This document shows, in pieces, positions 6,752 to 28,286 of a stretch of 33,077 nucleotides of DNA. Each line of letters starts with the position of its first letter. The stretch's first letter is position 1. Source of the stretch: Nanobdellota archaeon (GTDB lineage: Archaea; Nanobdellota; Nanobdellia; PEZQ01); NCBI GenBank assembly GCA_018220985.1, contig JAAOXS010000011.1:1-33077 (forward strand). The letters are read 5' to 3'. The translations under genes were made by a program, and so were the position numbers. Under the pieces are notes generated by a model that ran no database searches, was not told the DNA's origin, and saw only the letters and a program-made list of their open reading frames with translations.

Positions 6752-6781
6752 TTGTGAAAAAAATTTATAAAAATTTCACAA
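6752..6781. repeat. Inverted repeat at the hutH stop, before the GNAT gene
   Basis: Perfect 8-base arms TTGTGAAA (6752-6759) and TTTCACAA (6774-6781) flank a 14-base AT-only centre that contains TTTATAA. The right arm contains the hutH stop codon. It could be an operator, a hairpin at the 3' end of hutH mRNA, or a promoter element for GNAT-M20. Which of these applies cannot be told from sequence alone. Confidence 0.45.
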
Positions 6782-8266
6782 CTTAAATTTATGATTTTTA
6801 ATAAGTTTTTCAACATTATTCATATCTAAGTATAACTCTCTATCCTCCTCCATAAAACTAACAACACTTCTAACAACATCATAATTAAACTTGTTTTTCG
6901 GAGAAATCTTGGATAAATCACGAAAATCAATAGCCTGACAAGCAGTTAACAATTCAATTGCAAGAACATTACGAGAATTTTCAACAATATCCCTAGCTTT
7001 ACGAGCAGCAATAGTACCCATACTAACATGATCCTCCTGATTAGCACACGTAGGAATTGAATCAACACTAGCAGGATGAGCTAAAACCTTGTTTTCAGAA
7101 ACAAGAGCTGCAGCAGAATACTGAGGAATCATAAAACCACTATTTAAACCACTATTTTTAACTAAGAAAGCAGGTAAACCATTGTTAAAATTAGGATCAA
7201 CAAGTTTAGCCGTTCTTCTCTCACTAATATTCGCTAATTCAGCAACAGCAATACCAAGAAAATCAAAACTCAAAGCCATAGGTTGACCATGAAAATTACC
7301 ACCACACAAAACATCACCATCAAAAATAAGAGGATTATCAGTAGCTGAATTCAACTCAATCTCAACTTTACTTTTAATATAATTAATCGCATCACGAGAA
7401 GCTCCATGAACCTGAGGCATACAACGTAGAGAATAAGAATTCTGAACTTTAACATCACAAGATTTTACTAACTTGCTTCCATAAATTAAATTTCTTAAAT
7501 TCTTAGCGGAAAATAATTGACCACTATGTGGTCGAGCTTCATGAATACGCTTGTCAAAAGCTTCAGGAACTCCTTCAACAGCTTCTAAACTAAGAGCGCC
7601 AGCAATATCAGCAATATCTAATAAATATTCAGCGTCAAAAACTGCAAGAGCACCAACAGCAGTCATAACAGGAGTACCATTAGTAATAGCTAAACCTTCT
7701 TTAGAACTAAGAACAATTGGACTTAAACCAGCACGCTTAAGAGCTTCACCTCCAGATAATAATTCTCCTTTAAAAAAAGCTTCACCCTTACCGAGCATAA
7801 CTAAACCCATATGGGATAAAGGCGCTAAATCACCACTAGAACCAACAGAACCCTTCTCAGGAATAGCAGGATGAACACCATTGTTAAGCATATCAACTAA
7901 TAATTCAACAGTTTTTAAACGAATACCTGAATTACCCTTAGCAAAAGTATTAACTCTTAAAAGCATGATGGCACGAGAAATTTCTTCACTAAAAAAATTA
8001 CCAACACCTGCAGCGTGGCTTAAAATAATATTTTCTTGCAATTTAGCAGTTTCATTTTTGTCAATAATTTTATTTTTCAAAGCACCAAAACCAGTAGTTA
8101 AACCATAAACAACTTTTCCACTATCAACAAAACTCTCAACACTAGCACGTGCTTCATTAATCTTCTCTTTAGAATCATCAGATAAAATAATTTTGTAACT
8201 ATTTCTAGAAACTAGAACAAGATCGTTAATACTTAAACTAAAACCATCAAAAACAATTGAATCCAT
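6776..8266 (-). CDS. hutH: Histidine ammonia-lyase (histidase), MIO family
   Basis: This full-length 496-residue protein belongs to the aromatic amino acid lyase family. VVYGLTTGFG (52-61) contains the catalytic Tyr54. GSVGSSGDLAPL (139-150) is the MIO-forming site. The tripeptide is Ser143-Ser144-Gly145 instead of the common Ala-Ser-Gly. A first-position Ser should still permit cyclisation, since other residues are tolerated at this place in the family. GGNFHGQPMALSFD and the QEDHVSMG segment near the C-terminus are typical of histidases rather than phenylalanine lyases. The reaction is L-histidine to urocanate plus ammonia. No urocanase, imidazolonepropionase or formiminoglutamase is visible, so a full Hut pathway is not shown here. 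Neighbours are a HisRS paralogue upstream and GNAT and M20 downstream, all on this strand. Confidence 0.92.
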   Translation of the reverse strand: MDSIVFDGFSLSINDLVLVSRNSYKIILSDDSKEKINEARASVESFVDSGKVVYGLTTGFGALKNKIIDKNETAKLQENIILSHAAGVGNFFSEEISRAIMLLRVNTFAKGNSGIRLKTVELLVDMLNNGVHPAIPEKGSVGSSGDLAPLSHMGLVMLGKGEAFFKGELLSGGEALKRAGLSPIVLSSKEGLAITNGTPVMTAVGALAVFDAEYLLDIADIAGALSLEAVEGVPEAFDKRIHEARPHSGQLFSAKNLRNLIYGSKLVKSCDVKVQNSYSLRCMPQVHGASRDAINYIKSKVEIELNSATDNPLIFDGDVLCGGNFHGQPMALSFDFLGIAVAELANISERRTAKLVDPNFNNGLPAFLVKNSGLNSGFMIPQYSAAALVSENKVLAHPASVDSIPTCANQEDHVSMGTIAARKARDIVENSRNVLAIELLTACQAIDFRDLSKISPKNKFNYDVVRSVVSFMEEDRELYLDMNNVEKLIKNHKFKL

Positions 8267-8507: not shown

Positions 8508-9833
8508 CTATAAAAATTTATGTAACTCACTAATTTTTGCAGTAATCTGCTTTTTGTTAGGATCTTTTTCTGAAAAATTTTTAATTTCAACCGAGTTATT
8601 TTCTAACTCTCTTTTACCAATAATAACCACTGTTTTATAACCTAACTTATTAGCTAAATCTAATTGTTTGCTAAGCTTGAGTTCTGGTTTTAAATTGATT
8701 TCAGTGAAAATATTTTTAGAACGAAGCTTATTAGCAATATTTGTCGCTTCAAAATACAAATTTTCCCCAATATTAGCAACATAAACCTTTTTTCTGGAAA
8801 AAGAGGATCCAACATTCTCATTTTTAATAGCTTGAATAATTCTACTAACACCAATGGAAATACCAGTAGCAGGAATATCATTACTATTACCAATGTATTG
8901 TCCAATCATGTCATCATACCTACCGCCACTACAAACACTACCTAGGCTTTCTTGACCAGTAATAATTGTTTCAAAAACAGGCCCAGTATAATAATCAAGA
9001 CCCCTAGCGACAGAAGGATTAAAATTTATTTTATTAGAAATTCTATGAGCTTTAACATAATCTAATAATTCGTTTATTTCAACCAAGCCCTTACTTTCAC
9101 CAAGAATACTCTCTAAATTTTTTAACTTAGAGTCATTTGTTTTACCTTTGATATTAATAACTTCGATAAGCCTATCAATACTATTTTGCTCAATATCTTT
9201 TGCTAATAATTCACTCTTAACACTTTCTAATCCAATTTTATCAAGCTTGTCAAGAGATTGAATAACATTTTTTTGAATTTCTTTATGCATATAATCAGTA
9301 GAATAATTTTCTAAAGCACCAGAGTATTCAATAATATTATCCAATAACTTTCTATTATTCAGGTTTATAACATGATTTTTTAAACCTAGTTTTGAAATTG
9401 TTTTGCTAGCAACGCTTAAAATCTCAGCATCAGCACTCATATTGACAATTCCTACAATATCAATGTCGAACTGCTCAAATTCTCTATAACGCCCTTCTTT
9501 AACATCACCCCAACGCCAAGCAGGTCCAAACTCCATTCTTTTAAAAGGAAGTTTTTGATTAGGATTCATAGCTAAATAAATAGCCAGCGGAACAGTTTGA
9601 TCAAATTTTAAACCAAGCTTATGACCTTTAATCTCAAAAGCGTAAATTTCTTTAAGAATAGCATCACCTGACTTAAAAGAAAGAGAATCCTGATTGTAAA
9701 GAGCAGGTGACTTAAATGATTGAAAACCAAAATTACTAAATCCTTCTTTAATAATTGAAACAACGGATTCTTTGATCTCAACAGTTTCACCAACAAGATA
9801 CTGAACACCTCTTGGTAAAGAAAAATCAGCCAT
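8508..9833 (-). CDS. Histidyl-tRNA synthetase paralogue with altered N-terminal motif
   Basis: This 441-residue, full-length class II synthetase of the HisRS family has motif 2 as WRWGDVKEGRYREF (106-119). The histidine-specific motif ARGLDYYTG (276-284) is intact. SGGRYDDMIG and GISIGVSRI (motif 3) follow, and then a C-terminal anticodon-binding domain (VYVANIG to the end). The usual N-terminal KGTRDxxP segment is replaced by PRGVQYLVGE (7-16), so part of the motif 1 region has diverged. The histidine/ATP loop reads LKFDQTVP (75-82). The gene is divergent from a second HisRS gene 157 bases away that keeps KGTRD, and it is followed by hutH. It may be a second tRNA synthetase, a regulatory paralogue, or an enzyme using histidyl-adenylate for another product. 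Retained catalytic motifs argue against a dead copy. Confidence 0.8.
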   Translation of the reverse strand: MADFSLPRGVQYLVGETVEIKESVVSIIKEGFSNFGFQSFKSPALYNQDSLSFKSGDAILKEIYAFEIKGHKLGLKFDQTVPLAIYLAMNPNQKLPFKRMEFGPAWRWGDVKEGRYREFEQFDIDIVGIVNMSADAEILSVASKTISKLGLKNHVINLNNRKLLDNIIEYSGALENYSTDYMHKEIQKNVIQSLDKLDKIGLESVKSELLAKDIEQNSIDRLIEVINIKGKTNDSKLKNLESILGESKGLVEINELLDYVKAHRISNKINFNPSVARGLDYYTGPVFETIITGQESLGSVCSGGRYDDMIGQYIGNSNDIPATGISIGVSRIIQAIKNENVGSSFSRKKVYVANIGENLYFEATNIANKLRSKNIFTEINLKPELKLSKQLDLANKLGYKTVVIIGKRELENNSVEIKNFSEKDPNKKQITAKISELHKFL

Positions 9834-9990: not shown

Positions 9991-11286
9991 ATGCAAAATA
10001 AACTAGTTTTAGAAAATGTCAAAGGGACAAGAGACACTCATCCTGAAGAGATGCTGATTAAAGAAGAAATAATAAATAAAATAAATAAAATTTTTAAATC
10101 ATATGGTTTTGTACCTTTAGCAACACCAGCCCTTGAAAAATATGAATTATTAGCATCAAAATCAGCAGGTGGAAGTGATATTGATAAAGAAACTTATAAT
10201 TTTGAAATATCAGGTAGGAAACTTGCATTAAAATATGATCAAACAGTACCTTTATCCCGCTACATTGGTATGAATTCTCATTTAACATTACCTTTCAAAA
10301 GATATCAATATGATAGGAGCTGGAGATATGGAGATATTGGTCCTGGAAGATATAGGGAATTCTACCAATTTGACATAGATATTGTTGGGAGCTCATCAAT
10401 GATAGCTGAAGCAGAAATATTATCAGCAATAGTTGATGTTATGAAAGAATTAGGAATAAAAGGATTCAAAATAAGGGTTAGTAACAGAAAATTATTGGAT
10501 GAAATAGTTTTAAAAACAGGCATAAAAAAAATAAACAATAAAGATATTTTTAGAGCAATAGATAAATTAGAGAAAATTGGTGAAGAATGCGTTATAAACG
10601 AACTTGAAAAAATAGGGCTAACCAAAACTATTTCAAAAGAAATATTAAAATACATTAATTTAAGAGGAAAACCTGAAAAAGTACTAGTGGAACTAGAAAA
10701 AAACTTTAAAGAAACAAAAGGATACGCTGAACTCAAGGAACTAGCTGATTACGCTGAGCATTTTGGAATAATAAAATATTTAGATTATGATATAAGCATA
10801 GCACGCGGATTGGATTATTATACTGGGCCTGTTTTTGAAACAAATGTTGAAGAATTAAATCTTGGAAGCATTTGCAGTGGAGGAAGATATGATAATATGA
10901 TTGGAATGTTTTCTGGAAAAGCAATACCTGCAACAGGAATATCACTAGGAATAGATAGGATAATTGACACAATGAAAAGGCTTAACTTAATCAAAGAAAG
11001 AAAAACAGCAACGCAAATTATGGTATGCACTGTTAAAAATGAGTTGTTAAAAGAATCAATTAAGATAAGCAAAGAATTAAGAGAAAATGGTTTTAATGTG
11101 GAAGTTGATTTAATGAATAAATCATTAAAAAATCAAATAAAATACGCTGATAAACAATGTATACAAAAAATAATCATAATTGGGGAAAAAGAACTTGCTG
11201 AAAATAAAATTACAATTAGAAACTTAGAAACAAGCAAAGAAAAAACAGTTTTAAAACAAAAATTGTTAGAAGAACTAAGAATTTGA
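9991..11286 (+). CDS. hisS: Histidyl-tRNA synthetase
   Basis: This 431-residue class II synthetase attaches histidine to tRNA-His in the cytoplasm. VKGTRDTHPEE (10-20) is the normal N-terminal HisRS signature. LKYDQTVPLSRYIGMN (80-95) resembles the eukaryote-like LRYDLTVPFARY form. Motif 2 is WRYGDIGPGRYREF (111-124). ARGLDYYTG, CSGGRYDNMIG and GISLGIDRI (motif 3) follow, and the last ~100 residues form the anticodon-binding domain. This is the more canonical of the two copies and is taken as the housekeeping enzyme. The start is set by a GAGGT site 6 bases upstream. Both copies share the unusual DQTVP and W(R)xGD variants, which suggests they arose by duplication within one lineage. Row 10501-10560 has only 11 GC of 60. 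Confidence 0.92.
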   Translation: MQNKLVLENVKGTRDTHPEEMLIKEEIINKINKIFKSYGFVPLATPALEKYELLASKSAGGSDIDKETYNFEISGRKLALKYDQTVPLSRYIGMNSHLTLPFKRYQYDRSWRYGDIGPGRYREFYQFDIDIVGSSSMIAEAEILSAIVDVMKELGIKGFKIRVSNRKLLDEIVLKTGIKKINNKDIFRAIDKLEKIGEECVINELEKIGLTKTISKEILKYINLRGKPEKVLVELEKNFKETKGYAELKELADYAEHFGIIKYLDYDISIARGLDYYTGPVFETNVEELNLGSICSGGRYDNMIGMFSGKAIPATGISLGIDRIIDTMKRLNLIKERKTATQIMVCTVKNELLKESIKISKELRENGFNVEVDLMNKSLKNQIKYADKQCIQKIIIIGEKELAENKITIRNLETSKEKTVLKQKLLEELRI

Positions 11287-16890: not shown

Positions 16891-18021
16891 ATGCGCTATA
16901 ATACTAATGATGTGAAAGAATTATTAAAAAAAACAGGACTCATTTTTTTTTCAATAATATTATCTTTCCTAATACTTGAATTAACACTATTTATTGGAGG
17001 ACTTATAATAAACATTAATCAACAAATTGAAAATCAAATAACAGGATACGCCACGCATAAAAATGTTTATACAATTTTATGCTTAGGTGAATCAACAACA
17101 TCACATTTACCAGGAAATTCCTGGCCATCAGAACTTTACAAAATCCTAAAAGAAAAAAACATAACCGAGTTTAGAATAATTAATGCTGGTAAAGTTAGTG
17201 TAACAACTGGAATGATTATATCAGAATTAGATGAGAATATAGAAAAATATAATCCAGATATGGTTATTTCTATGATGGGGATAAATGATAAACTACTTTC
17301 GCAAATAAACCCTGAAAGAAACTTAAATCTAATTTATGATGATAAAAAAAAATTCTATGAACAATTAAAAACGATTAAATTAATTCAATACATAATTCAA
17401 GCATTACAAAACAAATATGTTGATAATTATATATATTTAGATAAGGATTGGGAAACAATTCGAAACATTACAAACCCACAAAATGATCCAAATGTAGCTA
17501 TTCATAGTGCTAGAATAAAAATTGCGAAAAATCAATTTGAAGACGCTGAAGAAATATTACTCCAAGCATGGAAAATAACGCCCGATGACAAAAGATTACC
17601 TTATGAATTAGCATACGTATACGCAATTAACCCTAAAAAAAAATTAATTAGTTTTCTTGAAGATAATGATTTACCCTTTTTACCCGTGAATCTATTAGAA
17701 CAAGACATTTTAGAATACCACTATAATACATTACACAAAAAAATTCAAGAAAAAAATATAATATATTTTGCAATGCAATATCCAACTCTTAACATTCAAG
17801 AAATTAAAAATTATTTCACGTTAGAAGACCAAACAAAAATAATATTCATAAGTAATAAAGAAAATTTTGAAGAATACTTAAAACAAGGAAAATATGACGA
17901 ATTATTTTATGATTCATTTGGGAAAAGCTTTGGCCATGCAACAAAGAAAGGGAACATAATGATTGCTGAAAATGTTGCAAAAATAATACTTGATTATGAC
18001 AAGTTCATAAAATTATTATAA
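16891..18021 (+). CDS. Membrane-anchored SGNH/GDSL hydrolase with TPR-like insert
   Basis: In this 376-residue protein residues ~15-42 form one hydrophobic anchor (GLIFFSIILSFLILELTLFIGG), so the rest is probably outside the cell. SGNH blocks are CLGESTT (64-70, nucleophile Ser68), NAG (98-100, oxyanion Gly), GIND (130-133, oxyanion Asn), and near the C-terminus YDSFGKSFGHATKKGN with catalytic Asp341 and His349. About 200 residues separate block III from the end. They include a TPR-like helical pair (ARIKIAKNQFEDAEEILLQA, then WKITPDDKRLPYELAYVYAI). It may be an esterase or O-acetylesterase acting on cell-surface glycans. The substrate is unknown. The DNA is extremely AT-rich (row 17341-17400 has 9 GC of 60). 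It is followed by nadM after 22 bases. Confidence 0.75.
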   Translation: MRYNTNDVKELLKKTGLIFFSIILSFLILELTLFIGGLIININQQIENQITGYATHKNVYTILCLGESTTSHLPGNSWPSELYKILKEKNITEFRIINAGKVSVTTGMIISELDENIEKYNPDMVISMMGINDKLLSQINPERNLNLIYDDKKKFYEQLKTIKLIQYIIQALQNKYVDNYIYLDKDWETIRNITNPQNDPNVAIHSARIKIAKNQFEDAEEILLQAWKITPDDKRLPYELAYVYAINPKKKLISFLEDNDLPFLPVNLLEQDILEYHYNTLHKKIQEKNIIYFAMQYPTLNIQEIKNYFTLEDQTKIIFISNKENFEEYLKQGKYDELFYDSFGKSFGHATKKGNIMIAENVAKIILDYDKFIKLL

Positions 18022-18043: not shown

Positions 18044-18532
18044 ATGAATGTGGGATTGTTCATCGGACGATTTCAACCCTTTCACAAAGGTCACGCCAGC
18101 GTAATTGAATACGCTTTAAAACAATGTGATAAACTAATAATTCTAATCGGCTCGCCAAAACAATACGGTAAAGAATACAACCCATTCACGTTAGACCAGA
18201 GAAAGAAAATGATAAAACTCGCACTGCCAAAAAAAGTTTTAGAAAAATGCGAGATAACAGAAGTAATTGATTATGGAAATAATAAGAAATGGGTTAACGC
18301 AGTTGAAAAAAACAAGTTTAACACAGTATTCACCAACAACCCTCACGTTGAAAAATGCTTGAAAAAACACGAAATAAGAAACATACCAATAACAGTTCAT
18401 TGCAATGCAACAGAAGTGAGAAGAAAAATGTACTTAGACCAGAACTGGAAAGAATGCGTACCAACCAAAGTGATGGAATACTTAGAAAAAATAAACGCGC
18501 AAAAAACAATGAAAAAAATAATCAACAACTAA
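18044..18532 (+). CDS. nadM: Nicotinamide-nucleotide adenylyltransferase (archaeal NadM type)
   Basis: In this 162-residue protein GRFQPFHKGH (8-17) is the nucleotidyltransferase HxGH signature in its NadM form. LIILIGSPKQYGKEYNPFT matches the IGSAQ...NPFT segment of archaeal NMN adenylyltransferases. NATEVRRKM replaces SGTEIRRRM (ISTxxxR motif), and the terminal VPTKVMEYL matches the family. It makes NAD+ from NMN and ATP. The short upstream spacer contains AATATTTTATAATATG. It is followed by a ten-T run that probably ends the transcript before the hydrogenase operon. An NAD-supplying gene next to an NAD(P)H-linked hydrogenase is suggestive but may be coincidental. Confidence 0.88.
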   Translation: MNVGLFIGRFQPFHKGHASVIEYALKQCDKLIILIGSPKQYGKEYNPFTLDQRKKMIKLALPKKVLEKCEITEVIDYGNNKKWVNAVEKNKFNTVFTNNPHVEKCLKKHEIRNIPITVHCNATEVRRKMYLDQNWKECVPTKVMEYLEKINAQKTMKKIINN

Positions 18533-18583: not shown

Positions 18584-19522
18584 ATGGAGAGGACAATATC
18601 AATACTTGATTTTAACAAATTATTACAACGCTTAAGCGAAAAAATAAGAGTGATTGTTCCAGTAAAAACAGAACACGGACACTACTACCAAGAATACGAC
18701 GGCGAATACAATTTTAATTTCATTCAAACACTGAACACGCCGAAAGACTGGCTAATGCCAAAAAAAGAATTATTATTCAAATACGAAAACAAAAAACCGA
18801 AAACAAAATATGAAACACAAAGAACAATAATCTTCGGAATAAAACCCTGCGATTTACACGCAATACAAATACTTGACAAAATACTAAAAAAAGACGTGTA
18901 CTACCAAAAAAAACGAGAGAACACAATACTAATTGGTTTGGACTGCGTGAAAGGAGATGAACACTGCTTCTGCACCAGCGTTGGAACGCACGTGCCAACA
19001 AACTATGACGCGTTCATGAAACGAATAAACGAAGGCTACCACTTCAAAAAAGGCTCGAATAAAGTAAACCAAATACTTAACTACAGTTTATTCAAGAACA
19101 CGAGCAAAAAACTAACACCCACAATCCCAATTAAAACGAAAAAATGGCAAATAAAAAACGTCACAAAAAAAATGAATGAAAAATTTAACGATAAGATTTG
19201 GAGCGAACTCGCAAAAGAATGCGTTGAATGCGGCAAGTGCACAGCGATATGCCCAACATGCTACTGTTTCAAAATAGTTGAAAACGAAATAGGAAGATGG
19301 CGAGAATGGGACTCATGCCAATTCACACAATTCACTCGCATTGCTGGAAACCACGTTTTCAGAAAAGACCTAACATCAAGAGTGAGACACAGATTCTACC
19401 ACAAATTCCACTACGCAAGAGGCGATGAAGGACTAATAGAATGCGTAGGATGCGGCAGGTGTTCAAGAACTTGCCCAGCCAACATTCACATGCTAAAAGT
19501 GATGAAAGAGGTAACAAAATGA
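18584..19522 (+). CDS. hydB: Sulfhydrogenase-type [NiFe] hydrogenase, beta subunit (iron-sulfur)
   Basis: This 312-residue electron-transfer subunit opens the hydBGDA operon. IFGIKPCDLHAIQILD (83-98) and LDCVKGDEHCFC (119-130) form the family's conserved N-terminal Cys region. Two ferredoxin-type [4Fe-4S] motifs follow: C213-x2-C216-x2-C219-x3-C223-P and C287-x2-C290-x2-C293-x3-C297-P. It is homologous to the Pyrococcus sulfhydrogenase beta subunit and carries electrons between the flavin subunit and the catalytic dimer. The GC content is far higher than in surrounding blocks (row 19201-19260 has 31 of 60). The stop codon overlaps the hydG start in ATGA, indicating translational coupling. Confidence 0.9.
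   Translation: MERTISILDFNKLLQRLSEKIRVIVPVKTEHGHYYQEYDGEYNFNFIQTLNTPKDWLMPKKELLFKYENKKPKTKYETQRTIIFGIKPCDLHAIQILDKILKKDVYYQKKRENTILIGLDCVKGDEHCFCTSVGTHVPTNYDAFMKRINEGYHFKKGSNKVNQILNYSLFKNTSKKLTPTIPIKTKKWQIKNVTKKMNEKFNDKIWSELAKECVECGKCTAICPTCYCFKIVENEIGRWREWDSCQFTQFTRIAGNHVFRKDLTSRVRHRFYHKFHYARGDEGLIECVGCGRCSRTCPANIHMLKVMKEVTK
19508..19512 (+). promoter_or_regulatory. Shine-Dalgarno site fixing the hydG start
   Basis: GAGGT lies 6 bases before the ATG at 19519, inside the end of hydB. It supports that ATG over an in-frame upstream ATG at 19441 inside hydB. Confidence 0.6.
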
Positions 19523-20286
19523 AAAACGAGTACGCACCAAGAATGCACAAAATCAAAAAAATAATAAACGAAACACCAACAGTTAAAAGTTTTATAATAA
19601 GCAAACCATTCAAAAAATTCACGCCAGGACAATTCGTACAAGTAACAGTTCCAGGAAGCGGAGAAATCACATTAGGAATAACCAGTCCACCAAAAGCAAG
19701 CACACTAAAAATAACAGTTAACAAAGTAGGAAACGTCACGAAAAAAATGCACGAACTACTAGTAGGCGACTTAATCGGGATAAGAGGACCTTACGGAAAC
19801 GGATGGCCAAAACTCAATGATAAAAAAATAATAATGATAGCTGGGGGCGTTGGAATCGTACCATTAAAACCACTAATACACGAATTAAAAGGTGAAGTGG
19901 AATTATACTACGGCGCGAAAACACGAGAAGACTTGCTATTTTACGATGAATTAAAAAAAATAGTGAAAAAAACAGAATTCACAGTTGACGAAAAAACTGG
20001 AAACTCCAATTGTAATGTTGGCGTAGTAACTGAAATATGTAAAAACGTGAATTGTGAAAACAGCGTTGCACTCGTGTGCGGACCACCAGTAATGATGAAA
20101 TTTGTTGTTAAAACATTAAAACAGCAAGGATTCAAAAATGAACAAATATACTTATCACTTGAAAGACTAATGCAGTGCGGGATAGGAATGTGCGAACACT
20201 GCAGAGTCGGAAAAAAACTTGTATGCCAAGACGGACCCGTTTTCAGATATGATGAAATAAAAAACTTTTACGAGGTGGAAACTTGA
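19519..20286 (+). CDS. hydG: Sulfhydrogenase-type hydrogenase, gamma subunit (FAD/NAD(P)-binding)
   Basis: This 255-residue ferredoxin-reductase-like subunit has an FAD domain (FTPGQFVQVTVPG, then LGITSPPK and RGPYGNGWP). A nucleotide-binding domain follows, with IAGGVGIVPLKPL (GGxGxxP) and CGPPVMMKF. The C-terminal [2Fe-2S] site has the spacing CGIGMC-EHC-x7-C and continues QDGPVF, as in PyrK and HydG proteins. It exchanges electrons with NAD(P)H. The ATG at 19519 overlaps the hydB stop and has a GAGGT site. An in-frame extension back to 19441 lies within hydB and is rejected. Its own stop overlaps the TTG start of hydD. Confidence 0.9.
   Translation: MKNEYAPRMHKIKKIINETPTVKSFIISKPFKKFTPGQFVQVTVPGSGEITLGITSPPKASTLKITVNKVGNVTKKMHELLVGDLIGIRGPYGNGWPKLNDKKIIMIAGGVGIVPLKPLIHELKGEVELYYGAKTREDLLFYDELKKIVKKTEFTVDEKTGNSNCNVGVVTEICKNVNCENSVALVCGPPVMMKFVVKTLKQQGFKNEQIYLSLERLMQCGIGMCEHCRVGKKLVCQDGPVFRYDEIKNFYEVET
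20272..20278 (+). promoter_or_regulatory. Strong Shine-Dalgarno site deciding a TTG start for hydD
   Basis: GAGGTGG is the best Shine-Dalgarno match in the window. It ends 4 bases before TTG at 20283, which itself overlaps the hydG TGA. The next in-frame ATG lies within the conserved Cys region, so TTG is the start. Confidence 0.65.
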
Positions 20287-21014
20287 AAAAACTAAAAGCA
20301 GGACTGTACAGTTTCACAGCTTGCCAGGGATGCCAATTAAACATGCTTAACGCGGAAAAAAAAATAGCATGGCTCGCGGAAAGAATAGAATTCACAAGAT
20401 TTCCATGGATACTTGAAAAAAACAGTGAAGGGCCATTTGACGTGGTCTTCGTTGAAGGTGCGATAACCACAAAAGAACATGTTAAAACATTAAAAGCGGT
20501 TAGGGAAAAAACGAAAACGTTAGTGGTAATAGGTTCTTGCGCGGCAATAGGTGGCGTTCCAGCAATTAAAAACTTATCAAACAAAAATCATCATAAAATA
20601 GTTTATGGCGAAAAACAGACTGGTGAAAAAACTCTTAACAAAGTGCACGCAGTAAAAGAATTTGTGAAAGTTGACTACACACTAAACGGATGTCCAATAC
20701 CCATACACGAATTCTTAGAATTCGTAGACGTTATTAGTCAAGGAATGGAATTCAGACAAAAAGATTACCCTGTATGCTACGAATGTATACTCAACAACAA
20801 TCATTGCTTACTATTTCAAGAAATACCTTGTGCAGGGCCAATAACTCGTGCAGGATGTAATTCGATTTGCGTGAATAATGGAGACCATTGCGATGCGTGT
20901 AGAGGAACATTTTCAACAGCGGACGTGAAAAAATACTTGAAACTGATGAACAATTTAGGATTTAAAAAACGAGAAGTGGAAGACTTACTAAGTTTTTATG
21001 GGGGAATAAAATGA
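20283..21014 (+). CDS. hydD: [NiFe] hydrogenase small subunit (delta)
   Basis: In this 243-residue protein SFTACQGCQLN (C14, C17), GSCAAIGG and NGCPIP supply the four ligands of the proximal [4Fe-4S] cluster, as in group 3 small subunits. A Cys-rich second half (PVCYEC, NNHCLLFQEIPC, AGCNSIC, DHCDACRG) can hold medial and distal clusters. FDVVFVEGAITT is the conserved core strand. There is no twin-arginine signal, so the enzyme is cytoplasmic. Translation starts at TTG, with the strong GAGGTGG site just upstream. The stop overlaps the hydA ATG in ATGA. Confidence 0.92.
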   Translation: MKKLKAGLYSFTACQGCQLNMLNAEKKIAWLAERIEFTRFPWILEKNSEGPFDVVFVEGAITTKEHVKTLKAVREKTKTLVVIGSCAAIGGVPAIKNLSNKNHHKIVYGEKQTGEKTLNKVHAVKEFVKVDYTLNGCPIPIHEFLEFVDVISQGMEFRQKDYPVCYECILNNNHCLLFQEIPCAGPITRAGCNSICVNNGDHCDACRGTFSTADVKKYLKLMNNLGFKKREVEDLLSFYGGIK

Positions 21015-22282
21015 CGGTGTACAAACTTGACCATGTGACAAAAATAGAAGGTCATGCAAGATTAAACGTGAAAATAGAAGATGGAATTGTGAAAAAAGTT
21101 GAATTAAACGTTTTTGAAGGCTCACGGTACTTTGAAAGTCTTGTTTTAAACAGGCATTATGAAGAAATTAGCGAACTAACCGCGAGAATTTGCGGAATAT
21201 GCTCTCCAGCGCATAGAATTGCAGCGTTAATAGCAATAGAAGATGCGATAAACGTGAAACCATCAGAGCAAACAACAATATTAAGAGAACTATTAGTTAA
21301 CGGTGCGCACATGGAAAGCCATGGATTACACGCATTATTAGTATCCTTAGTAGATTACTTGGGGTTCAAAGACCCTTTTGAAATGATGCGAAAAAAACCA
21401 GAACTCGTAAAAGACGCTCTTGAAATAAAACGCGTAGGAAACTTAATGGTAAAAATTGTTGGGGGTAGGGCGATACAACCAATTACTCCAAAAGTTAACG
21501 GATTCAAAAAACTACCATCTAAAGATGAGTTGAACAATTTGCTTAAAGAACTAAAAAACGTACGACCACTCGTACTAAAATTTTTGCAAATATTCTCACA
21601 ACTACAATACCCAAATTTTTGGAGAGAATGCAACCACTACTGCACAACATCACCCACTTATTCTATGATTAGGGGCAGACCTGACAGTTTTCGAGGTCAT
21701 AGTTTTCCAGTTCAAGAATTTCAAAAACACGTTAAAGAAATAGTTATACCCTACTCGACTGCGAAATTCTCACGAATTCAGGGGGAAACTTATATGGTGG
21801 GTGCGTTGCCAAGATTGAATGTTAACAGTCATAAACTAACTCCTGAAGCAAAAGAATGGTTGTTTAAAACACCTTCTTTCAACACGTTTCACAATGATTT
21901 CGCGCAAGTAATAGAACTCATTCACTTGGTTGATAATTCAATTAATGTTTTAGAAGGATTTGAAGTAAAAAAAGAAAACACGAATTTCACGTTTAAACCA
22001 GGAGTGGGATTCTCTTCAACTGAAGCTCCGAGAGGAACGCTTTACCATAATTATGAATTCAATAAAGAGGGTAGAGTTGTGAAAGCGGACATATTGACTC
22101 CAACAGCTCAAAACTTGCCGAACTTGGAAAATGATATTAAAGAATATTTATCACAACTAATCAGCAAAGGTGAGAAAGAAATTCTTTGGGGTTGTGAAAG
22201 AATGATACGCGCGTATGACCCTTGCATAAGTTGTTCTACACACTTCCTAAAACTTAAAATAAATAATAAAACTGTTTCTTAG
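21011..22282 (+). CDS. hydA: [NiFe] hydrogenase large subunit (alpha), group 3b-like
   Basis: In this 423-residue protein the nickel-iron ligands are RICGICSPAHR (C61, C64) near the N-terminus and DPCISCSTH (C405, C408) near the C-terminus. Operon order B-G-D-A and subunit sizes match the bidirectional NAD(P)-linked sulfhydrogenases of Thermococcales (group 3b). Members oxidise NAD(P)H to release H2, or the reverse, and some reduce polysulfide. Twelve residues follow His411 (FLKLKINNKTVS). In this family a short tail is cut by a maturation protease after nickel insertion, and a candidate protease gene is at 26192-26515. The alkA gene starts 4 bases after the stop. Confidence 0.94.
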   Translation: MTVYKLDHVTKIEGHARLNVKIEDGIVKKVELNVFEGSRYFESLVLNRHYEEISELTARICGICSPAHRIAALIAIEDAINVKPSEQTTILRELLVNGAHMESHGLHALLVSLVDYLGFKDPFEMMRKKPELVKDALEIKRVGNLMVKIVGGRAIQPITPKVNGFKKLPSKDELNNLLKELKNVRPLVLKFLQIFSQLQYPNFWRECNHYCTTSPTYSMIRGRPDSFRGHSFPVQEFQKHVKEIVIPYSTAKFSRIQGETYMVGALPRLNVNSHKLTPEAKEWLFKTPSFNTFHNDFAQVIELIHLVDNSINVLEGFEVKKENTNFTFKPGVGFSSTEAPRGTLYHNYEFNKEGRVVKADILTPTAQNLPNLENDIKEYLSQLISKGEKEILWGCERMIRAYDPCISCSTHFLKLKINNKTVS

Positions 22283-23933: not shown

Positions 23934-24321
23934 ACTTTTGTAATAAGAATTCTTTAACAGCTTTAGGATATAACCTTATCTTCTCCAAATTTTTTAAATC
24001 AACCCAAGTAATACTCTGAAAAACACCACCTTTTAAATCAGGATTCTTAGAAAAATTTAAAACACCAGACACTAATTTAACAGCGTAATAAAATTCCTCA
24101 CGATGATGAAGTTCACCATCAAAACACTTTAACAACAAGCCACCAACTCTAACACTTAAATCAGCCTTCTCTTTAAACGCCCTAACCAAACACTCACTGT
24201 GCGATTCACCTTTTTCCAAACCGCCACCAGGAAGAACAAAATACTCCTCATTAAAACGCTTATGCAACGCTAACAATATCTTATTATCCTTAACTAATAC
24301 ACCGCAAACACGAGTCATCAT
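23899..24321 (-). CDS. Nudix hydrolase-family protein with altered Nudix box
   Basis: In this 140-residue protein the fold signature is clear: FVLPGGGLEKGESHSECLVR, then AFKEKADL, aligned to Gx5Ex7REUxEExGU. The Gly, first Glu and Arg are kept, but REUxEE is RAFKEK, losing two of the three acidic residues that bind metal. Strands before (RVCGVLVKDNKILLALHKR) and after (FYYAVKLVSG) fit the domain. Typical Nudix enzymes cleave nucleoside diphosphate-linked compounds; this one may be weak, altered or non-catalytic. It is translationally coupled to the upstream BASS transporter (4-base overlap) and overlaps the ASCH gene by 35 bases. Confidence 0.8.
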   Translation of the reverse strand: MMTRVCGVLVKDNKILLALHKRFNEEYFVLPGGGLEKGESHSECLVRAFKEKADLSVRVGGLLLKCFDGELHHREEFYYAVKLVSGVLNFSKNPDLKGGVFQSITWVDLKNLEKIRLYPKAVKEFLLQKYESFVDSSTLG

Positions 24322-25175
24322 TTCTTCCTTAAATAATACTCTTCCAAAAAAACCATGAAAAAAGGAAGAACAAGAATGTTAGCGCCTAACGCGAGCAAAG
24401 CACGATTAGATAAAAAGGATAATGCGACAACACTAGCAATACCCGTATTCTTCATCGTAGAAAACAACACGAACAATTTCTCATCAGTTAATTTTGTTTT
24501 AACAATTTTAGAGAAGAAAGCGAAAAAACCAAAACGGTATACCAAACTAATTCCAACCAATAAAACAAACAAAGCAGGCTCACTGAAAATGAAAAAACTA
24601 TTCTTACCAATCACCACGTAAAAAATTAAAGCCAAACACAATTCGATAACTAACTTATTATACTTGTCAGTGTTAACGTTCCTAACAAAATACGCGACGA
24701 TTAAAGGCAAAACAATCACTAACAATAATTGAACAAACAACAAACTAACAGAAATAGACTCGCCTAAAAACAAGAAAACAAGAATAGGCGAAACAATCAA
24801 ATAAACAAGATAACTAACTGCTTCAGCGAGCAATGCGCCACCAACATCACTCTTCAAAATAAAAGACATGGCAATAACGCTAACAGCAGGAGGCATCAAA
24901 CACCATAATAATAAACCACTAAAAACTTCCAAATCACTAATGAAAAAAGAACTAAAAAAAGCAAGTACCAAACCCGAAAACAGCGAAACTAAAAACAACC
25001 ATTGAACACGCCCAAAATCCTCCCTATCAACTTTCTCGAACTTAGCGTTTTTCAAACTGAAAACCATAAGAACAATCAAAAACAAAGTTGTGAAACTCGA
25101 AAGATAAGGCGCGAGCTGAGGGAAAAACAAACCTAACAAAACACTAGACAAAAAAATGAACAAACTCCGCTTCAT
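24318..25175 (-). CDS. BASS-family (bile acid:sodium symporter-like) transporter
   Basis: This 285-residue membrane protein has about nine or ten hydrophobic segments. MPPAVSVIAMSFILKSDVGGALLAE corresponds to the PPAxSV core motif. STMKNTGIASVVALSFL corresponds to the second conserved (G/S)MKNTGLAxxLA motif. Together these mark the two crossover regions of the BASS fold. Members move organic anions, often with sodium, including pantoate, pyruvate and bile acids. The substrate here is unknown. It is first in an operon with Nudix and ASCH genes, so a nucleoside- or vitamin-related substrate is conceivable but not shown. Confidence 0.8.
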   Translation of the reverse strand: MKRSLFIFLSSVLLGLFFPQLAPYLSSFTTLFLIVLMVFSLKNAKFEKVDREDFGRVQWLFLVSLFSGLVLAFFSSFFISDLEVFSGLLLWCLMPPAVSVIAMSFILKSDVGGALLAEAVSYLVYLIVSPILVFLFLGESISVSLLFVQLLLVIVLPLIVAYFVRNVNTDKYNKLVIELCLALIFYVVIGKNSFFIFSEPALFVLLVGISLVYRFGFFAFFSKIVKTKLTDEKLFVLFSTMKNTGIASVVALSFLSNRALLALGANILVLPFFMVFLEEYYLRKK

Positions 25176-25255: not shown

Positions 25256-26203
25256 GTGAAAAAAAGGATTAGTGAAATAAAAATTGGAGAAATCATAAAT
25301 AACTTCTTCGTAGTAAAAATCAAAAAAGGAATACAACCATACGCCAACGGATTCTCATTTACATTACTCTTATCAGACGAAACAGGAAAAACAGTGAACT
25401 ACAAATACTGGGGCGGAACAAGCGAAGAAAAAATAAAACTAATTTATGACTCAATAAAACCAGACTCAATAGTTCACGTGCAAGGAAAAGCAGGGGAATA
25501 CAACAATAAAACGCAAATCACTACAAACGAACCGTACACAATAAAAGTTGTTCATAATGGTTTAGAATTCATAAAACCCGCAAAAAAAGACTTGGAAAAA
25601 ATGTGGAACGAATTATTAAACACTATTTCAAAAGTTGAAAACCCTGAAATAAAAAAATTACTACAAAAAACATTTTTAAACCAAGAATTTGCTGAAAAAT
25701 TCAAAAAACACCCTGGCGCAATAGAAATACACCACAATTGGATAGGTGGATTATTACAACACACGCTAGAAGTGTTAAACTACTGTAAAATGGCATGGCA
25801 CCAACACCCAGAATTAAACAAAGACCTGCTAATTGCAGGAGCACTACTCCACGACATAGGAAAACTAGAAGAATTAGAAGTAACCTCCCGAATAAAAGGA
25901 AGTAAGAAAGGCCAACTAATCAGCCACTTAGTATTAAGCGCGATTAAAGTTAATGAAGAAATGCGAGAATTAAATGATGATTTAAAAAATAAGATTTTGC
26001 ACATGATAGTAAGTCATCATGGAAAACCAGAATACGGCTCGCCCAAACCGCCAATGTTTCCAGAAGCACTAGTTGTTTACTACGCTGATGAGATGAGTTC
26101 TAAAACAAGCGAGATGATAGAATTCATAAAAGATGCAAAACAAGACACTGAAGATGACTTCATGTACAGCAGAAGGCATAACAAAAACGTACTACTCAAG
26201 TAA
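25256..26203 (+). CDS. YhaM-like 3'-5' exoribonuclease (OB fold plus HD domain)
   Basis: This 315-residue protein starts at GTG; no in-frame ATG is nearby. Residues ~1-100 form an OB fold (ISEIKIGEIINNFFVVK, SFTLLLSDETGK, VHVQGKAGEYNN). The HD phosphohydrolase domain follows: HHNWIGGLLQHT supplies the first His residues, GALLHDIGKLEEL the HD pair, SHLVLS and VSHHGKPEYGSP later metal ligands, and YYADEMSSK the last Asp. Both order and motifs match bacterial YhaM/CBF1, which degrades RNA or DNA from the 3' end. Its presence in an archaeal setting suggests transfer or an under-described archaeal branch. It has a 12-base convergent overlap with the protease gene. Confidence 0.85.
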   Translation: MKKRISEIKIGEIINNFFVVKIKKGIQPYANGFSFTLLLSDETGKTVNYKYWGGTSEEKIKLIYDSIKPDSIVHVQGKAGEYNNKTQITTNEPYTIKVVHNGLEFIKPAKKDLEKMWNELLNTISKVENPEIKKLLQKTFLNQEFAEKFKKHPGAIEIHHNWIGGLLQHTLEVLNYCKMAWHQHPELNKDLLIAGALLHDIGKLEELEVTSRIKGSKKGQLISHLVLSAIKVNEEMRELNDDLKNKILHMIVSHHGKPEYGSPKPPMFPEALVVYYADEMSSKTSEMIEFIKDAKQDTEDDFMYSRRHNKNVLLK

Positions 26204-26515
26204 TTCTTTTACTTTTTCAACAGCATTAATTAACTCATAATTTTTTGGAATGCCAATCACTTTAACTTTTAAAATACCCTTCATCAATCTAAGATAAGTT
26301 CCTAAATCAAAATCGTGGACGCTAACAGCCTTATGAGATTTTAATTCATTTAACTTAACAAACCGAACATCACTCAAACCCCAAACCACGTCAACAACCA
26401 CATCACCATTTTTAAGTTCGTGCACGTTATTTGAATTCTTAAAACCTAACACATCACCTACGCGCCAAGCTAAATCATCGCCACTAACTTTTGAACCGAA
26501 ACACAAAATACTCAT
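26192..26515 (-). CDS. Probable hydrogenase maturation protease, minimal form
   Basis: This 107-residue protein is much shorter than the usual ~150. By alignment with HycI/HybD, GSKVSGDDLAWRV (7-19) matches GNxxxxDDGxGxxV, giving the nickel-sensing Asp14. VVVDVVWG (39-46) matches the VDA segment with Asp42. SVHDFDLGTYL (65-75) matches SxHxxxLxxLL with His67. KVIGIPKNYE is the last strand (VxGIxP). All three metal ligands appear kept. It would cut the C-terminal tail of the hydrogenase large subunit (HydA, 12-residue tail). The gene is about 4 kb from hydA, beside a divergent DUF6390-like gene whose start is 35 bases away, and near hypC. Confidence 0.65.
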   Translation of the reverse strand: MSILCFGSKVSGDDLAWRVGDVLGFKNSNNVHELKNGDVVVDVVWGLSDVRFVKLNELKSHKAVSVHDFDLGTYLRLMKGILKVKVIGIPKNYELINAVEKVKELLE

Positions 26516-26550
26516 AATGTTTAAGTAATAACTCGAATTTTAAAGAGTTT

Positions 26551-27141
26551 ATGGAAGGACTAACACTTTTAGCAAGATTTGCATTTGGCGCAGCTAACAA
26601 TGAAGATTGCATATGCCCCTTCAAAAGCAAAAAAATAATTGAATTAGAACAAGAAATAAAAACAAACATTAAATTAGAAGAAGGAAACTTGTACGAAAAC
26701 ATTAGAAAAATATCACGAGAAAACCCGCTATCATTAGAAACAGTTGAAGCATACGTAATTGGAAACAAAATTTCATTAAGCAATCATAAACTGCACCACA
26801 ATTACGCAGTACTAAAAATATTGGAAAAACTACCAAACCTGAACAATAATGAATCATTCAAAGAAAAAACAAGGAATTGTTTAATCACGCCGGGAATATA
26901 CAATGGCAAATCAATAAACACTTTTTCTTCAAAAATTGTGAAAAACCCATTCGAATTACAACTCGAAAGAGGAGATATGGTATTAATTCACTACAATTCC
27001 GCACTCACAAAAATTAATGAAAAACAATACGAAACATTAAAAGAAATAACTGAAAAAATAATTGGAAACATTCCAAACAATGAATGGATTAAACAACAAT
27101 TTCCCACACTTGAAAAATTACAACCCATTCAAGACGCATAA
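26551..27141 (+). CDS. Hydrogenase-neighbourhood protein, resembles DUF6390
   Basis: This 196-residue protein begins MEGLTLLARFAFGAANNEDC. It contains ENPLSLETVEAYVIGNKIS (about 57-75), HHNYAVLKI, NCLITPGIYNGK and GDMVLIHYNSALTKI. From memory these match the uncharacterised DUF6390 family, seen beside hydrogenase genes in bacteria (MxGLxLxARYA start, DPxxxxVVEAYWIGN, HHSFHVL, NCRIxWG, GDxVAIHW). This is recollection, not a search. It lies between the protease and hypC, which supports a hydrogenase-related role. No membrane segment or catalytic motif is seen. Conserved His (about 79-80) and Cys residues could bind metal. Its 3' end overlaps hypC by 24 bases. Confidence 0.55.
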   Translation: MEGLTLLARFAFGAANNEDCICPFKSKKIIELEQEIKTNIKLEEGNLYENIRKISRENPLSLETVEAYVIGNKISLSNHKLHHNYAVLKILEKLPNLNNNESFKEKTRNCLITPGIYNGKSINTFSSKIVKNPFELQLERGDMVLIHYNSALTKINEKQYETLKEITEKIIGNIPNNEWIKQQFPTLEKLQPIQDA

Positions 27142-27312
27142 CGCATCTTCTTCAGAAACTTTTTGCACAACCATTCTTTGAGCAACAATAACGTACTCAC
27201 CAACACCCGCACTAATCAAATTCTGAACTTCACTCTCCCCGAACTCGCCGTAACTAACAATAGCATTATTTCCCTCAACTCTCACAATTTTACCAGGCAA
27301 ACTAATACACAT
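27118..27312 (-). CDS. hypC: Hydrogenase maturation chaperone HypC, divergent
   Basis: This 64-residue protein begins MCISLPGKIVRVEGNNAIVS, the HypC/HybG signature in which Cys2 must be N-terminal. The in-frame extension upstream to 27339 is therefore rejected. It continues as a small OB barrel (VGEYVIVAQRMVVQKVSEEDA). HypC binds HypD and carries the Fe(CN)2CO group to the large subunit. In well-studied HypC proteins the stretch YVLVHxGFA has a conserved His after the last Val. Here the aligned residue is Ala44 (YVIVAQRMV), so the partner of Cys2 is missing. It follows the 116-residue orphan by 4 bases in the tpiA transcript. HypA, B, D, E and F are not in the window. Confidence 0.75.
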   Translation of the reverse strand: MCISLPGKIVRVEGNNAIVSYGEFGESEVQNLISAGVGEYVIVAQRMVVQKVSEEDALCVLNGL

Positions 27313-27316
27313 AAAT

Positions 27317-27667
27317 TCATAATTCAAAACTTTTATCAATTAAAAACTTTAACGCTCTTGAAACCTCACTGTCAGGCATCACACCTTCAATACGGCTCTT
27401 CTGAAAATTAGCCCTATGACGCCACAATCGCGACTCCTCACTACTCTTTTTACGCCTGTCCACAAACTGATTGGAAATAACATCCACCTTATTATTCAAA
27501 AACTTGAAATAATTATCCAACCTCTCACCGGGCAAAGACTCGTTAAGCAAAGAGAAACTTTCAAACTCAATAGCTTGCATGAAAGGCTCAATAGTGGCGT
27601 GCTTAAAACCTAAACGCTTCAACTTCAACTCCAACGAGTGCAACTCTTCAATTACTTTATCCTGCAT
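27317..27667 (-). CDS. Hypothetical protein between tpiA and hypC, 116 residues
   Basis: This protein is not recognised. It is helical and highly charged, with a central Arg/Lys-rich segment (FVDRRKKSSEESRLWRHRAN) and no membrane span or cysteine. The start ATG at 27667 is preceded at 4 bases by GAGGTG (27677-27672), which lies inside the end of tpiA, so it is chosen over a TTG at 27679. Overlap with tpiA (11 bases) and the 4-base gap to hypC indicate one transcript. Because of this position a role in hydrogenase assembly is possible, but nothing in the sequence shows it. Confidence 0.6.
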   Translation of the reverse strand: MQDKVIEELHSLELKLKRLGFKHATIEPFMQAIEFESFSLLNESLPGERLDNYFKFLNNKVDVISNQFVDRRKKSSEESRLWRHRANFQKSRIEGVMPDSEVSRALKFLIDKSFEL

Positions 27668-28286
27668 CAAACACCTCAATCACGTTTTCCATCCAGCGCT
27701 CAGGACTACTGCTTTTAATAACAGCACTTGAAACCAAAATGCCCTTAGCACCCAAACGCATTGCAACTTCAACATCTTTTTGATTATTAATCCCTGCACC
27801 AACTAACACATTCCTAAAATTTTTACAAGCATTCCTAATTAAAGAAGGTTTTGCCACGCTAACACTTATTTTACCACCAATCAATTCAGGAGGCTCAACA
27901 GCGATAGCAGTTGGATTAAATTTTTTCACCAAATTCAACTCTTTAACATTCTTAACGCAAACCACGCTTGCCAAACCTAACTTTTTCAAACGCTTAACAG
28001 ATTCTTTAACAACAATCCAAGGAACACGCTTCTCACTATGATTAATTAAACTCCCAAACGCGCCAGCTTCCAAAATTTTTTCAGGAAGAACAGCACCAGT
28101 GAACTTACCTTGTTTTGAAGCATCAACGTGCTGAGCAAGGGTTTGACAAATATGCCCAACTTCTTTTAAATCAGGAAGTTGCGGGCATGCGTACACGTTT
28201 TCAGTAACACTAATAGCGCGAGCGAAAAGAACAGGGTCAATGCTGTACGTTTTAAAATTTACTATTACACAAGGAAAAGTAATCAT
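27657..28286 (-). CDS. tpiA: Triosephosphate isomerase, archaeal type
   Basis: This 209-residue protein is short, as in archaea. Catalytic residues are visible: NFK (Asn10, Lys12), LINHSEKR with His83 as the general acid, and VEPPELIG with Glu131 as base. The phosphate-binding GAGINNQKDV and ILVSSAVIKSSSP loops follow. It interconverts dihydroxyacetone phosphate and glyceraldehyde 3-phosphate and supplies GAPDH. It is first in a transcript with the 116-residue orphan and hypC. A TATA-like box lies about 28 bases before the ATG, and there is no Shine-Dalgarno site. The spacer to the divergent debranching-enzyme gene is 84 bases. Confidence 0.93.
   Translation of the reverse strand: MITFPCVIVNFKTYSIDPVLFARAISVTENVYACPQLPDLKEVGHICQTLAQHVDASKQGKFTGAVLPEKILEAGAFGSLINHSEKRVPWIVVKESVKRLKKLGLASVVCVKNVKELNLVKKFNPTAIAVEPPELIGGKISVSVAKPSLIRNACKNFRNVLVGAGINNQKDVEVAMRLGAKGILVSSAVIKSSSPERWMENVIEVFDAG

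Follow-up and report, generated by a model that had tools for sequence, protein, structure and literature searches.

The 33,077-base stretch of Nanobdellota DNA analyzed here (the window; GenBank assembly GCA_018220985.1, contig JAAOXS010000011.1; contig C2 of genome G000) carries a group-3b-like [NiFe] hydrogenase, hydBGDA, and, 4 kb away from it, a mini-locus of genes for a small maturation protease, a DUF6390-like protein, and HypC. Gene content and sequence comparison suggest that this hydrogenase is probably matured by a route independent of HypD, HypE, and HypF, with the DUF6390-like protein and HypC as the scaffold. Such a HypDEF-independent route, with two alternative modules, appears to be widespread in DPANN archaea and present in the candidate phyla radiation (CPR). 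In the part of a 2025 review considered here, HypA to HypF are described as all needed for the cofactor (PMC12134894). No published description of a HypDEF-independent route was found in the literature searched. A search on hypD and hydrogenase maturation in DPANN likewise returned nothing. Group 3b hydrogenases of Woesearchaeota have been reported, and the word "maturation" does not occur in the portion of that report considered here (PMC8421398).

Loss of HypD, HypE, and HypF

The genome of the window (661,534 bases, 83.6% complete) was compared with 76 relatives, 13 of which match the HydA large subunit, and with 80 loci kept from a scan of GTDB-species contigs using the HydA alignment. By record titles, the loci comprise 61 DPANN, 3 Nitrososphaera-like, 5 CPR, 9 Actinomycetota, 1 Dehalococcoidales, and 1 Deltaproteobacteria; named records among the HydA relatives are mainly Woesearchaeota, Nanoarchaeota, and Aenigmatarchaeota, and the genome of the window was accordingly taken to be that of a DPANN archaeon. 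HypD (PF01924) was found neither in the window's own genome nor in any of the 76 relatives, the 13 hydrogenase-bearing ones included. HypE (TIGR02124) and HypF (TIGR00143), searched in the 76 relatives only, exceeded the cut-off in none of them, and the numerous weak HypF matches were single-domain pieces only. HypD was also searched in 79 genomes of the 80-locus set. It was present in 12 of 60 DPANN, all 3 Nitrososphaera-like, all 9 Actinomycetota, and the single Dehalococcoidales genome, and absent from 48 of the 60 DPANN genomes with a related large subunit, all 5 CPR genomes, and the Deltaproteobacteria record. On these counts, HypD-less [NiFe] hydrogenases are the majority in the DPANN set. 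The HypD model gave E values of 1e-107 to 1e-120 in the 12 DPANN genomes and therefore works in this group. Incompleteness as the reason for the missing HypD was rejected, as four hydrogenase-bearing relatives at 99-100% completeness (G020, G039, G055, and G061, with G039 a single contig) lack it as well.

The initial annotation had proposed a compact maturation set and a search for hypABDEF elsewhere. The search recovered HypA-like and HypB genes on contig C11 of the same genome (G000:C11:7604-8432), but not HypD, HypE, or HypF, so that the case for a compact set became stronger than originally claimed. HypB scored 8.8e-62, over the cut-off; the HypA-like protein directly before it (L168 7604-7825) has about 73 residues, is over the cut-off, and lacks the zinc-finger part. 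With HypA-like, HypB, HypC, and the protease present and HypD, HypE, and HypF absent, the genome has kept nickel insertion along with a carrier and a protease, and the known ligand-synthesis part is gone. Two loci with DUF6390 that seemed to belong to a HypF family cluster were rejected, since what they hold are 89-residue acylphosphatases. No radical S-adenosylmethionine (SAM) or other CN/CO enzyme was present among the window open reading frames (ORFs) checked; the ORF at 16891-18021 is a weak GDSL-lipase match.

A histidine missing from HypC

The window HypC matched PF01455 (1.9e-10; 41.2 bits over a cut-off of 28.5) and remained below the TIGR00074 cut-off (32.7 against 48). Its N-terminal Met-Cys is present (MCISLPG), and alanine stands at the histidine column of the GDxVxxH motif (E. 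coli H51). Among the 76 relatives, HypC (PF01455) was found in 11, all of which have a HydA match; homologues in genomes without a [NiFe] hydrogenase, which would have refuted the initial proposal, were thus not seen.

For 71 of the genomes on the HydA tree, the HypC sequence was read. The histidine (as in GDYVLVHAGFA) was kept in 23 of 23 genomes with HypD and replaced by another residue in all 48 without it, the window included. Seven of seven independent contrasts on the tree had the same direction (p 0.016). Loss of the histidine is an independent mark of HypD loss, within a retained protein.

The DUF6390-like protein as a member of a HypC-domain family

By itself, the window protein matched PF19927 below the cut-off (E 0.0029; 17.6 bits against 25) and the C-terminal half of PF01455 (HypC) with an E of 0.0054. 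With a profile iterated from relatives, the E value was 1.3e-25, and profiles iterated from the neighbors of DPANN hydrogenases unite DUF6390 and HypC in one superfamily. The layout of an N-terminal part followed by a HypC-like domain with Cys and His was found in the window protein. AlphaFold models were obtained for a long form (L098; predicted local distance difference test [pLDDT] 94, predicted template modeling score [pTM] 0.90) and for the window protein (pLDDT 84, pTM 0.83). HypC structures were the best PDB matches of both models (2z1c_A, Z 5.5, root mean square deviation [rmsd] 2.0, 70 aligned; Z 5.4, rmsd 2.1, 64 aligned), and in whole-model searches only the HypC-like half was matched. 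These modest Z values are backed by profiles, with 20 of 30 members matching PF01455 and 18 of 30 matching PF19927 at an E of 0.01 or better.

Across the 30 aligned members, the HypC-type His and a His of the N-terminal part are invariant (30/30 each). The HypC-type Cys is found in 28 of them; L124, which has HypD, has Ala instead, and L090 has Ser. The equivalent residues of E. coli HypC are Cys2, which binds iron, and His51, which may do so, according to the part of the review considered (PMC12134894). By its sequence, the DUF6390-like protein is a HypC-domain protein in which both iron ligands of HypC, Cys and His, are retained. No paper on DUF6390 was found in a literature search.

Among the 48 HypD-less DPANN genomes, 39 to 41 have a DUF6390-like gene: 26 in the hydrogenase locus, 1 on another contig (L138 of G055), and, from a genome search rather than the locus neighborhood, 12 full and 2 partial genes. 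For the HypD-containing DPANN genomes, the count was 1 full copy in 12, with two more shortened copies, and for the HypD-containing genomes of other phyla, 0 in 13. Within DPANN, full copies of DUF6390 and HypD are strongly opposed (Fisher p 4.9e-6). Two HypD-less records outside DPANN, L104 and L131, bring the total to 43 DUF-type genomes among the 80 loci. L104 is titled Deltaproteobacteria; its HydA groups with Woesearchaeota, it carries a DUF6390-EamA pair, and it is probably a mis-binned DPANN contig.

A second alternative: HydG with a HypC-HydE fusion

In six HypD-less genomes (3 Peregrinibacteria, 1 Micrarchaeota, 1 Nanoarchaeota, and 1 Woesearchaeota), a HypC-HydE fusion gene lies directly beside HydG, and a [NiFe] hydrogenase is present. 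Neither HypD nor DUF6390 was found in these six. In L126 and L164 (Peregrinibacteria), HydG follows the fusion gene and scored 566 and 560 bits (cut-off 312); the fusions scored 267 and 293 for HydE (cut-off 254.6) and 60.8 and 52.7 for HypC (cut-off 48). HydG directly precedes hydD-hydA in L126, and the pair lies some 6 kb before hydD-hydA on the same contig in L164. When 75 genomes were searched, HydG exceeded the cut-off in exactly four (L099, L102, L109, and L165), each with an adjoining HypC-HydE. HydE was over the cut-off in five of the six HydG-type genomes and just under it in L102 (253.8). The radical SAM motif and the C-terminal CxxCx22C motif are present in each of the six HydG proteins. 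In the fusions, the histidine is again missing from the HypC portion. In the L102 genome, the HypC portion seems to begin with a non-standard codon, and the protease gene is adjacent.

HydG was absent from the 30 DUF-type DPANN genomes of the 80-locus set and the 10 HypD-containing DPANN genomes that were searched, as well as from the genome of the window. As described in the part of a report considered here, tyrosine is the source from which HydG produces the CO and CN of [FeFe] hydrogenases (PMC9431212). In the six genomes, HydG could serve both the [NiFe] enzyme and a possible [FeFe] hydrogenase.

Module exchange on a conserved active site

For the HydA tree (84 rows), the module table has 83 rows: 53 without HypD and with DUF6390 or HydG, 5 without HypD and with neither, 1 with HypD and one of these modules, and 24 with HypD and none. 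On the tree, the HypD label has to change 11 times, and no fewer than 7 of these changes fall on well supported branches. When the alternative module was set against HypD, about 6.3 of 8 independent pairs were opposed and none was concordant (median p 0.031).

The ligand pocket of HydA (four Cys, the Arg of EAPRG, Pro, and Thr) is invariant across the HypD, DUF6390, HydG, and unassigned groups; the only row with gaps there is truncated by the end of its contig. Because these residues do not vary, the same Fe(CN)2CO site is presumably built in all groups. The window hydrogenase has the four subunits and four metal-binding Cys of group 3b, and its genes gave strong matches to group-3b sulfhydrogenase models that were all below the equivalog cut-offs (for ShyA/HydA of NCBIfam, about 278 bits against 700/880). 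Four relatives, G014, G021, G032, and G026 (L065 7440-10692, L066, L067, and L063-L064), also carry a second large subunit of group-4-like type, in loci with HypC and DUF6390-like genes; all are HypD-less.

A permease beside DUF6390

An EamA-family permease (PF00892) was detected by neighbor-gene clustering and profile search of the 80 loci in the fetched DNA of 33 of the 43 DUF-type genomes. In 28 genomes its distance from DUF6390 is 450 bases at most, and the two genes usually overlap; in L145, a chain of overlaps runs from DUF6390 through the permease and hydD to hydA. None of 25 HypD-containing genomes had it (Fisher 7e-11 against the DUF-type). A related, weaker EamA match occurs near the hydrogenase of the HydG-type L099. 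In L156, whose fetched DNA has no EamA, a FecCD-type importer of the ATP-binding cassette (ABC) class follows DUF6390. In L241 (2590-5968), the usual place of EamA after DUF6390 is taken by same-strand genes for a Peripla_BP_2 binding protein, a FecCD permease, and an ABC ATPase, an importer of the iron-complex/B12 type. The window permease at 24318-25175 was rejected as an EamA protein, its match being a weak one to SBF, below the cut-off. No paper linking EamA, HypC, and hydrogenase was found in a literature search.

Proposed maturation route and alternative explanations

In the proposed route, the DUF6390-like protein and HypC would together hold the Fe(CN)2CO unit, a job shared elsewhere by HypC and HypD, and would pass it to apo-HydA. 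The HypA-like protein and HypB would then add nickel, and the small protease would cut the C-terminal tail of HydA. In the six HydG-type relatives, HydG and the HypC-HydE fusion would replace both HypD and DUF6390 as the ligand supply. For the DUF-type genomes, our preferred, though weak, guess is uptake from neighboring cells, either of the iron-cyanide-CO unit itself or of a precursor, because in most of these genomes an EamA permease gene overlaps the DUF6390 gene or directly adjoins it. The joint picture, that many small host-associated archaea salvage the unit or its precursor through EamA and load it by HypC and DUF6390 while others rebuilt synthesis with HypC-HydE and HydG, is distinctly doubtful.

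Several observations weigh against the scaffold route or its generality. Plasmids of Sulfobacillus acidophilus and Mycobacterium intracellulare carry DUF6390 next to HypD, HypE, and HypF, and the protein retains Cys and His there; because of this, DUF6390 is an accessory scaffold compatible with HypDEF and not by itself a HypD equivalent, and the special feature is the HypDEF-less state rather than the presence of DUF6390. The DUF6390 protein of L090, in a HypD-less genome, has Ser for the Cys. DUF6390 or a remnant occurs in three HypD-containing DPANN genomes, namely L124 (Cys to Ala), L120 (shortened, inside a complete hypA-C-D-E-F cluster), and L101 (shortened); those of L120 and L124 look like remnants after a module switch. 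Five HypD-less genomes have no module (L095, L111, L123, L150, and L154; L123 was not searched for HydG), although in L095 DUF6390 may have been cut off by the assembly, since an EamA permease sits near the contig end. G026, with a group-4-like hydrogenase and outside the 71-genome set, lacks HypD and yet keeps the HypC histidine. No EamA was found in the window by profile search, the genome outside the window and contig C11 not having been searched for it. Most genomes compared are metagenome bins or drafts, and G000 itself is 83.6% complete. As a separate observation, Sulfobacillus has a second HypC without the histidine.

The most serious alternative, to which we would give a substantial minority chance, is that the organism makes CN and CO by unrecognized enzymes, perhaps the N-terminal domain of DUF6390, and that Fe(CN)2CO is assembled on HypC and DUF6390 while EamA exports a by-product or has nothing to do with the ligands. 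In all 43 genomes the constant partner is DUF6390, whereas EamA is absent from the window and, in 10 of the 43, from the DNA fetched; the N-terminal part of DUF6390 has an invariant His and no fold match in whole-model searches; and HydG and HydE show that other ligand chemistry can be recruited. However, no common extra enzyme was found among the neighbors of DUF-type loci, and DUF6390 coexists with HypE and HypF in aerobes, which speaks against a role in ligand synthesis. Alternatively, the HypD-less enzymes might lack a normal [NiFe] site, being inactive relics or having a different metal site and reaction. No CN/CO source is known in the 43 DUF-type genomes, and the window HydA is the longest-branched row of its tree (1.03), but the pocket is invariant in all groups, the C-terminal tail and protease are kept, and modules have been exchanged repeatedly on one tree, which argues for selection for function; we therefore regard this explanation as unlikely. 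That HypD, HypE, and HypF are present but were missed through incomplete assemblies or strong divergence is very improbable. Incompleteness of G000 and the draft state of most relatives would allow it, but three large families are jointly absent from 13 hydrogenase-bearing relatives, four of them at 99-100% completeness, HypD of 12 other DPANN genomes was found at an E below 1e-106, and the HypC histidine is lost in 48 of 48 HypD-less genomes.

The initial annotation had further suggested a coupling of hydrogenase assembly with glycolysis. On the minus strand, tpiA, the first gene of a same-strand run, overlaps an orphan ORF by 11 bases, and hypC begins 4 bases past the orphan; because of this overlap and short gap, a single tpiA-orphan-hypC transcript is plausible. 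Phosphoglycerate kinase (PGK) and glyceraldehyde-3-phosphate dehydrogenase (GAPDH) are encoded in the window besides tpiA, which suggests a general glycolytic neighborhood, and L132 (3528-5625) has a same-strand tpiA-hypA-hypC-DUF6390-protease run. However, triose-phosphate isomerase occurs in the compared stretch of only 6 of 81 loci, two of them near-copies, the direct run is found in the window and L132 only, and the protease and DUF6390 genes are on other transcripts. The claim thus comes down to linkage, not backed beyond gene order, and co-regulation of maturation with glycolysis is improbable.

Comparison with known systems

With the canonical HypABCDEF system of the E. coli type, the scaffold route shares HypC with its N-terminal Met-Cys, HypA/HypB for nickel, a C-terminal protease, and the conserved pocket. 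It differs in having no HypD, HypE, or HypF, in the added DUF6390-like protein with Cys and His, and in a HypC without the histidine (E. coli H51) for which the review, in the part considered, gives a proposed help in iron binding (PMC12134894). With HydE/HydF/HydG maturation of [FeFe] hydrogenases, six HypD-less relatives share a HydG over the cut-off with CxxCx22C and a HydE-type radical SAM enzyme; here, however, HydE is fused to HypC, and in two Peregrinibacteria HydG and the fusion lie on the contig of a [NiFe] hydD-hydA. The DUF6390 (PF19927) proteins of aerobic H2 oxidizers, on the Mycobacterium and Sulfobacillus plasmids, share the family, the Cys and His, and the association with hydrogenase maturation; they stand beside a full HypCDEF set, whereas in the window DUF6390 is the sole scaffold candidate besides HypC. 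In O2-tolerant hydrogenases, HoxV/HupK with HoxL/HupF provide a functional analogy, an extra Fe(CN)2CO carrier between HypCD and the large subunit as described in the same part of the review (PMC12134894). HoxV/HupK resemble the large subunit, whereas DUF6390 carries a HypC domain; the likeness considered is one of function.

If the pattern holds, HypD, HypE, and HypF could be replaced by either of two different means while the enzyme backbone stays the same, which would provide a natural test of the essential steps of Fe(CN)2CO assembly and a simpler maturation set for hydrogenase production in other hosts. If uptake is true, it would be a new metabolic dependency of small symbiotic archaea on their partners. 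Should both the salvage and HydG modules prove true, cells would be trading an organometallic cofactor, and the maturation modules of [NiFe] and [FeFe] hydrogenases could be swapped for one another.

Gene layout of the window

The protease, DUF6390-like, and HypC genes of the initial annotation were all confirmed at their distance from hydBGDA (Table 1). Beyond that annotation, a HypC-like domain was recognized inside the DUF6390 protein, and hypD, hypE, and hypF were found to be absent.

Table 1. Features of the window and of the loci compared
Feature	Position	Strand	Remarks
hydB, Fe-S subunit, group-3b-like hydrogenase	18584..19522	+	family matches
hydG, flavin/NAD subunit	19441..20286	+	family matches; start uncertain, likely inside
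hydD, small subunit	20283..21014	+	family matches
hydA, [NiFe] large subunit	21011..22282	+	all ligand-pocket residues, short C-terminal tail
hydBGDA as a whole	18584-22282	+	
Small HycI/HybD-like hydrogenase maturation protease	26192..26515	-	107 aa; weak family score, alignment
DUF6390-like protein	26551..27141	+	196 aa; N-terminal helical part and C-terminal HypC-like domain, Cys110, His147
hypC	27118..27312	-	64 aa; retains the N-terminal Met-Cys but not the iron-site His
Orphan ORF between tpiA and hypC	27317..27667	-	116 aa; matches no family
tpiA, archaeal triose-phosphate isomerase	27657..28286	-	archaeal type, 6.6e-58; first gene of same-strand run
HypC-HydE and HydG loci	L126 6775-9407; L164 799-3456; L224 34-2831; L225/L231; L226/L232; L227/L233		
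DUF6390 next to HypD/HypE/HypF, plasmids	L251 10910-14750; L252 9825-14729		Sulfobacillus acidophilus, Mycobacterium intracellulare

The protease had no Pfam match and did not reach the HycI/HybD family scores of Pfam and NCBIfam, its only match being FrhD (E 0.039). It could be aligned with 56 proteases beside other hydrogenases (an alignment of 57), with the D...D...HD pattern kept; its D, D, and H we take, from HybD, to be the metal-binding positions. The orphan had no homologue among the loci compared. The protease and DUF6390 genes are divergent, and DUF6390 and hypC are convergent with a 24-base overlap, and the three are not one operon. The convergent, overlapping DUF6390/hypC pair also occurs in the long-form loci L092, L098, L104, L144, and L068, and most short-form DUF6390 genes stand in tandem after hypC.

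Directly before hydB lies a gene for nicotinamide mononucleotide adenylyltransferase (NAD synthesis; 18044-18532), with a related gene in loci L122 and L134. Farther upstream, two neighboring HisS genes (8508-9833, minus strand; 9991-11286, plus strand) are over the histidyl-tRNA synthetase cut-off, and the pair adjoins a histidine ammonia-lyase gene at 6776-8266.

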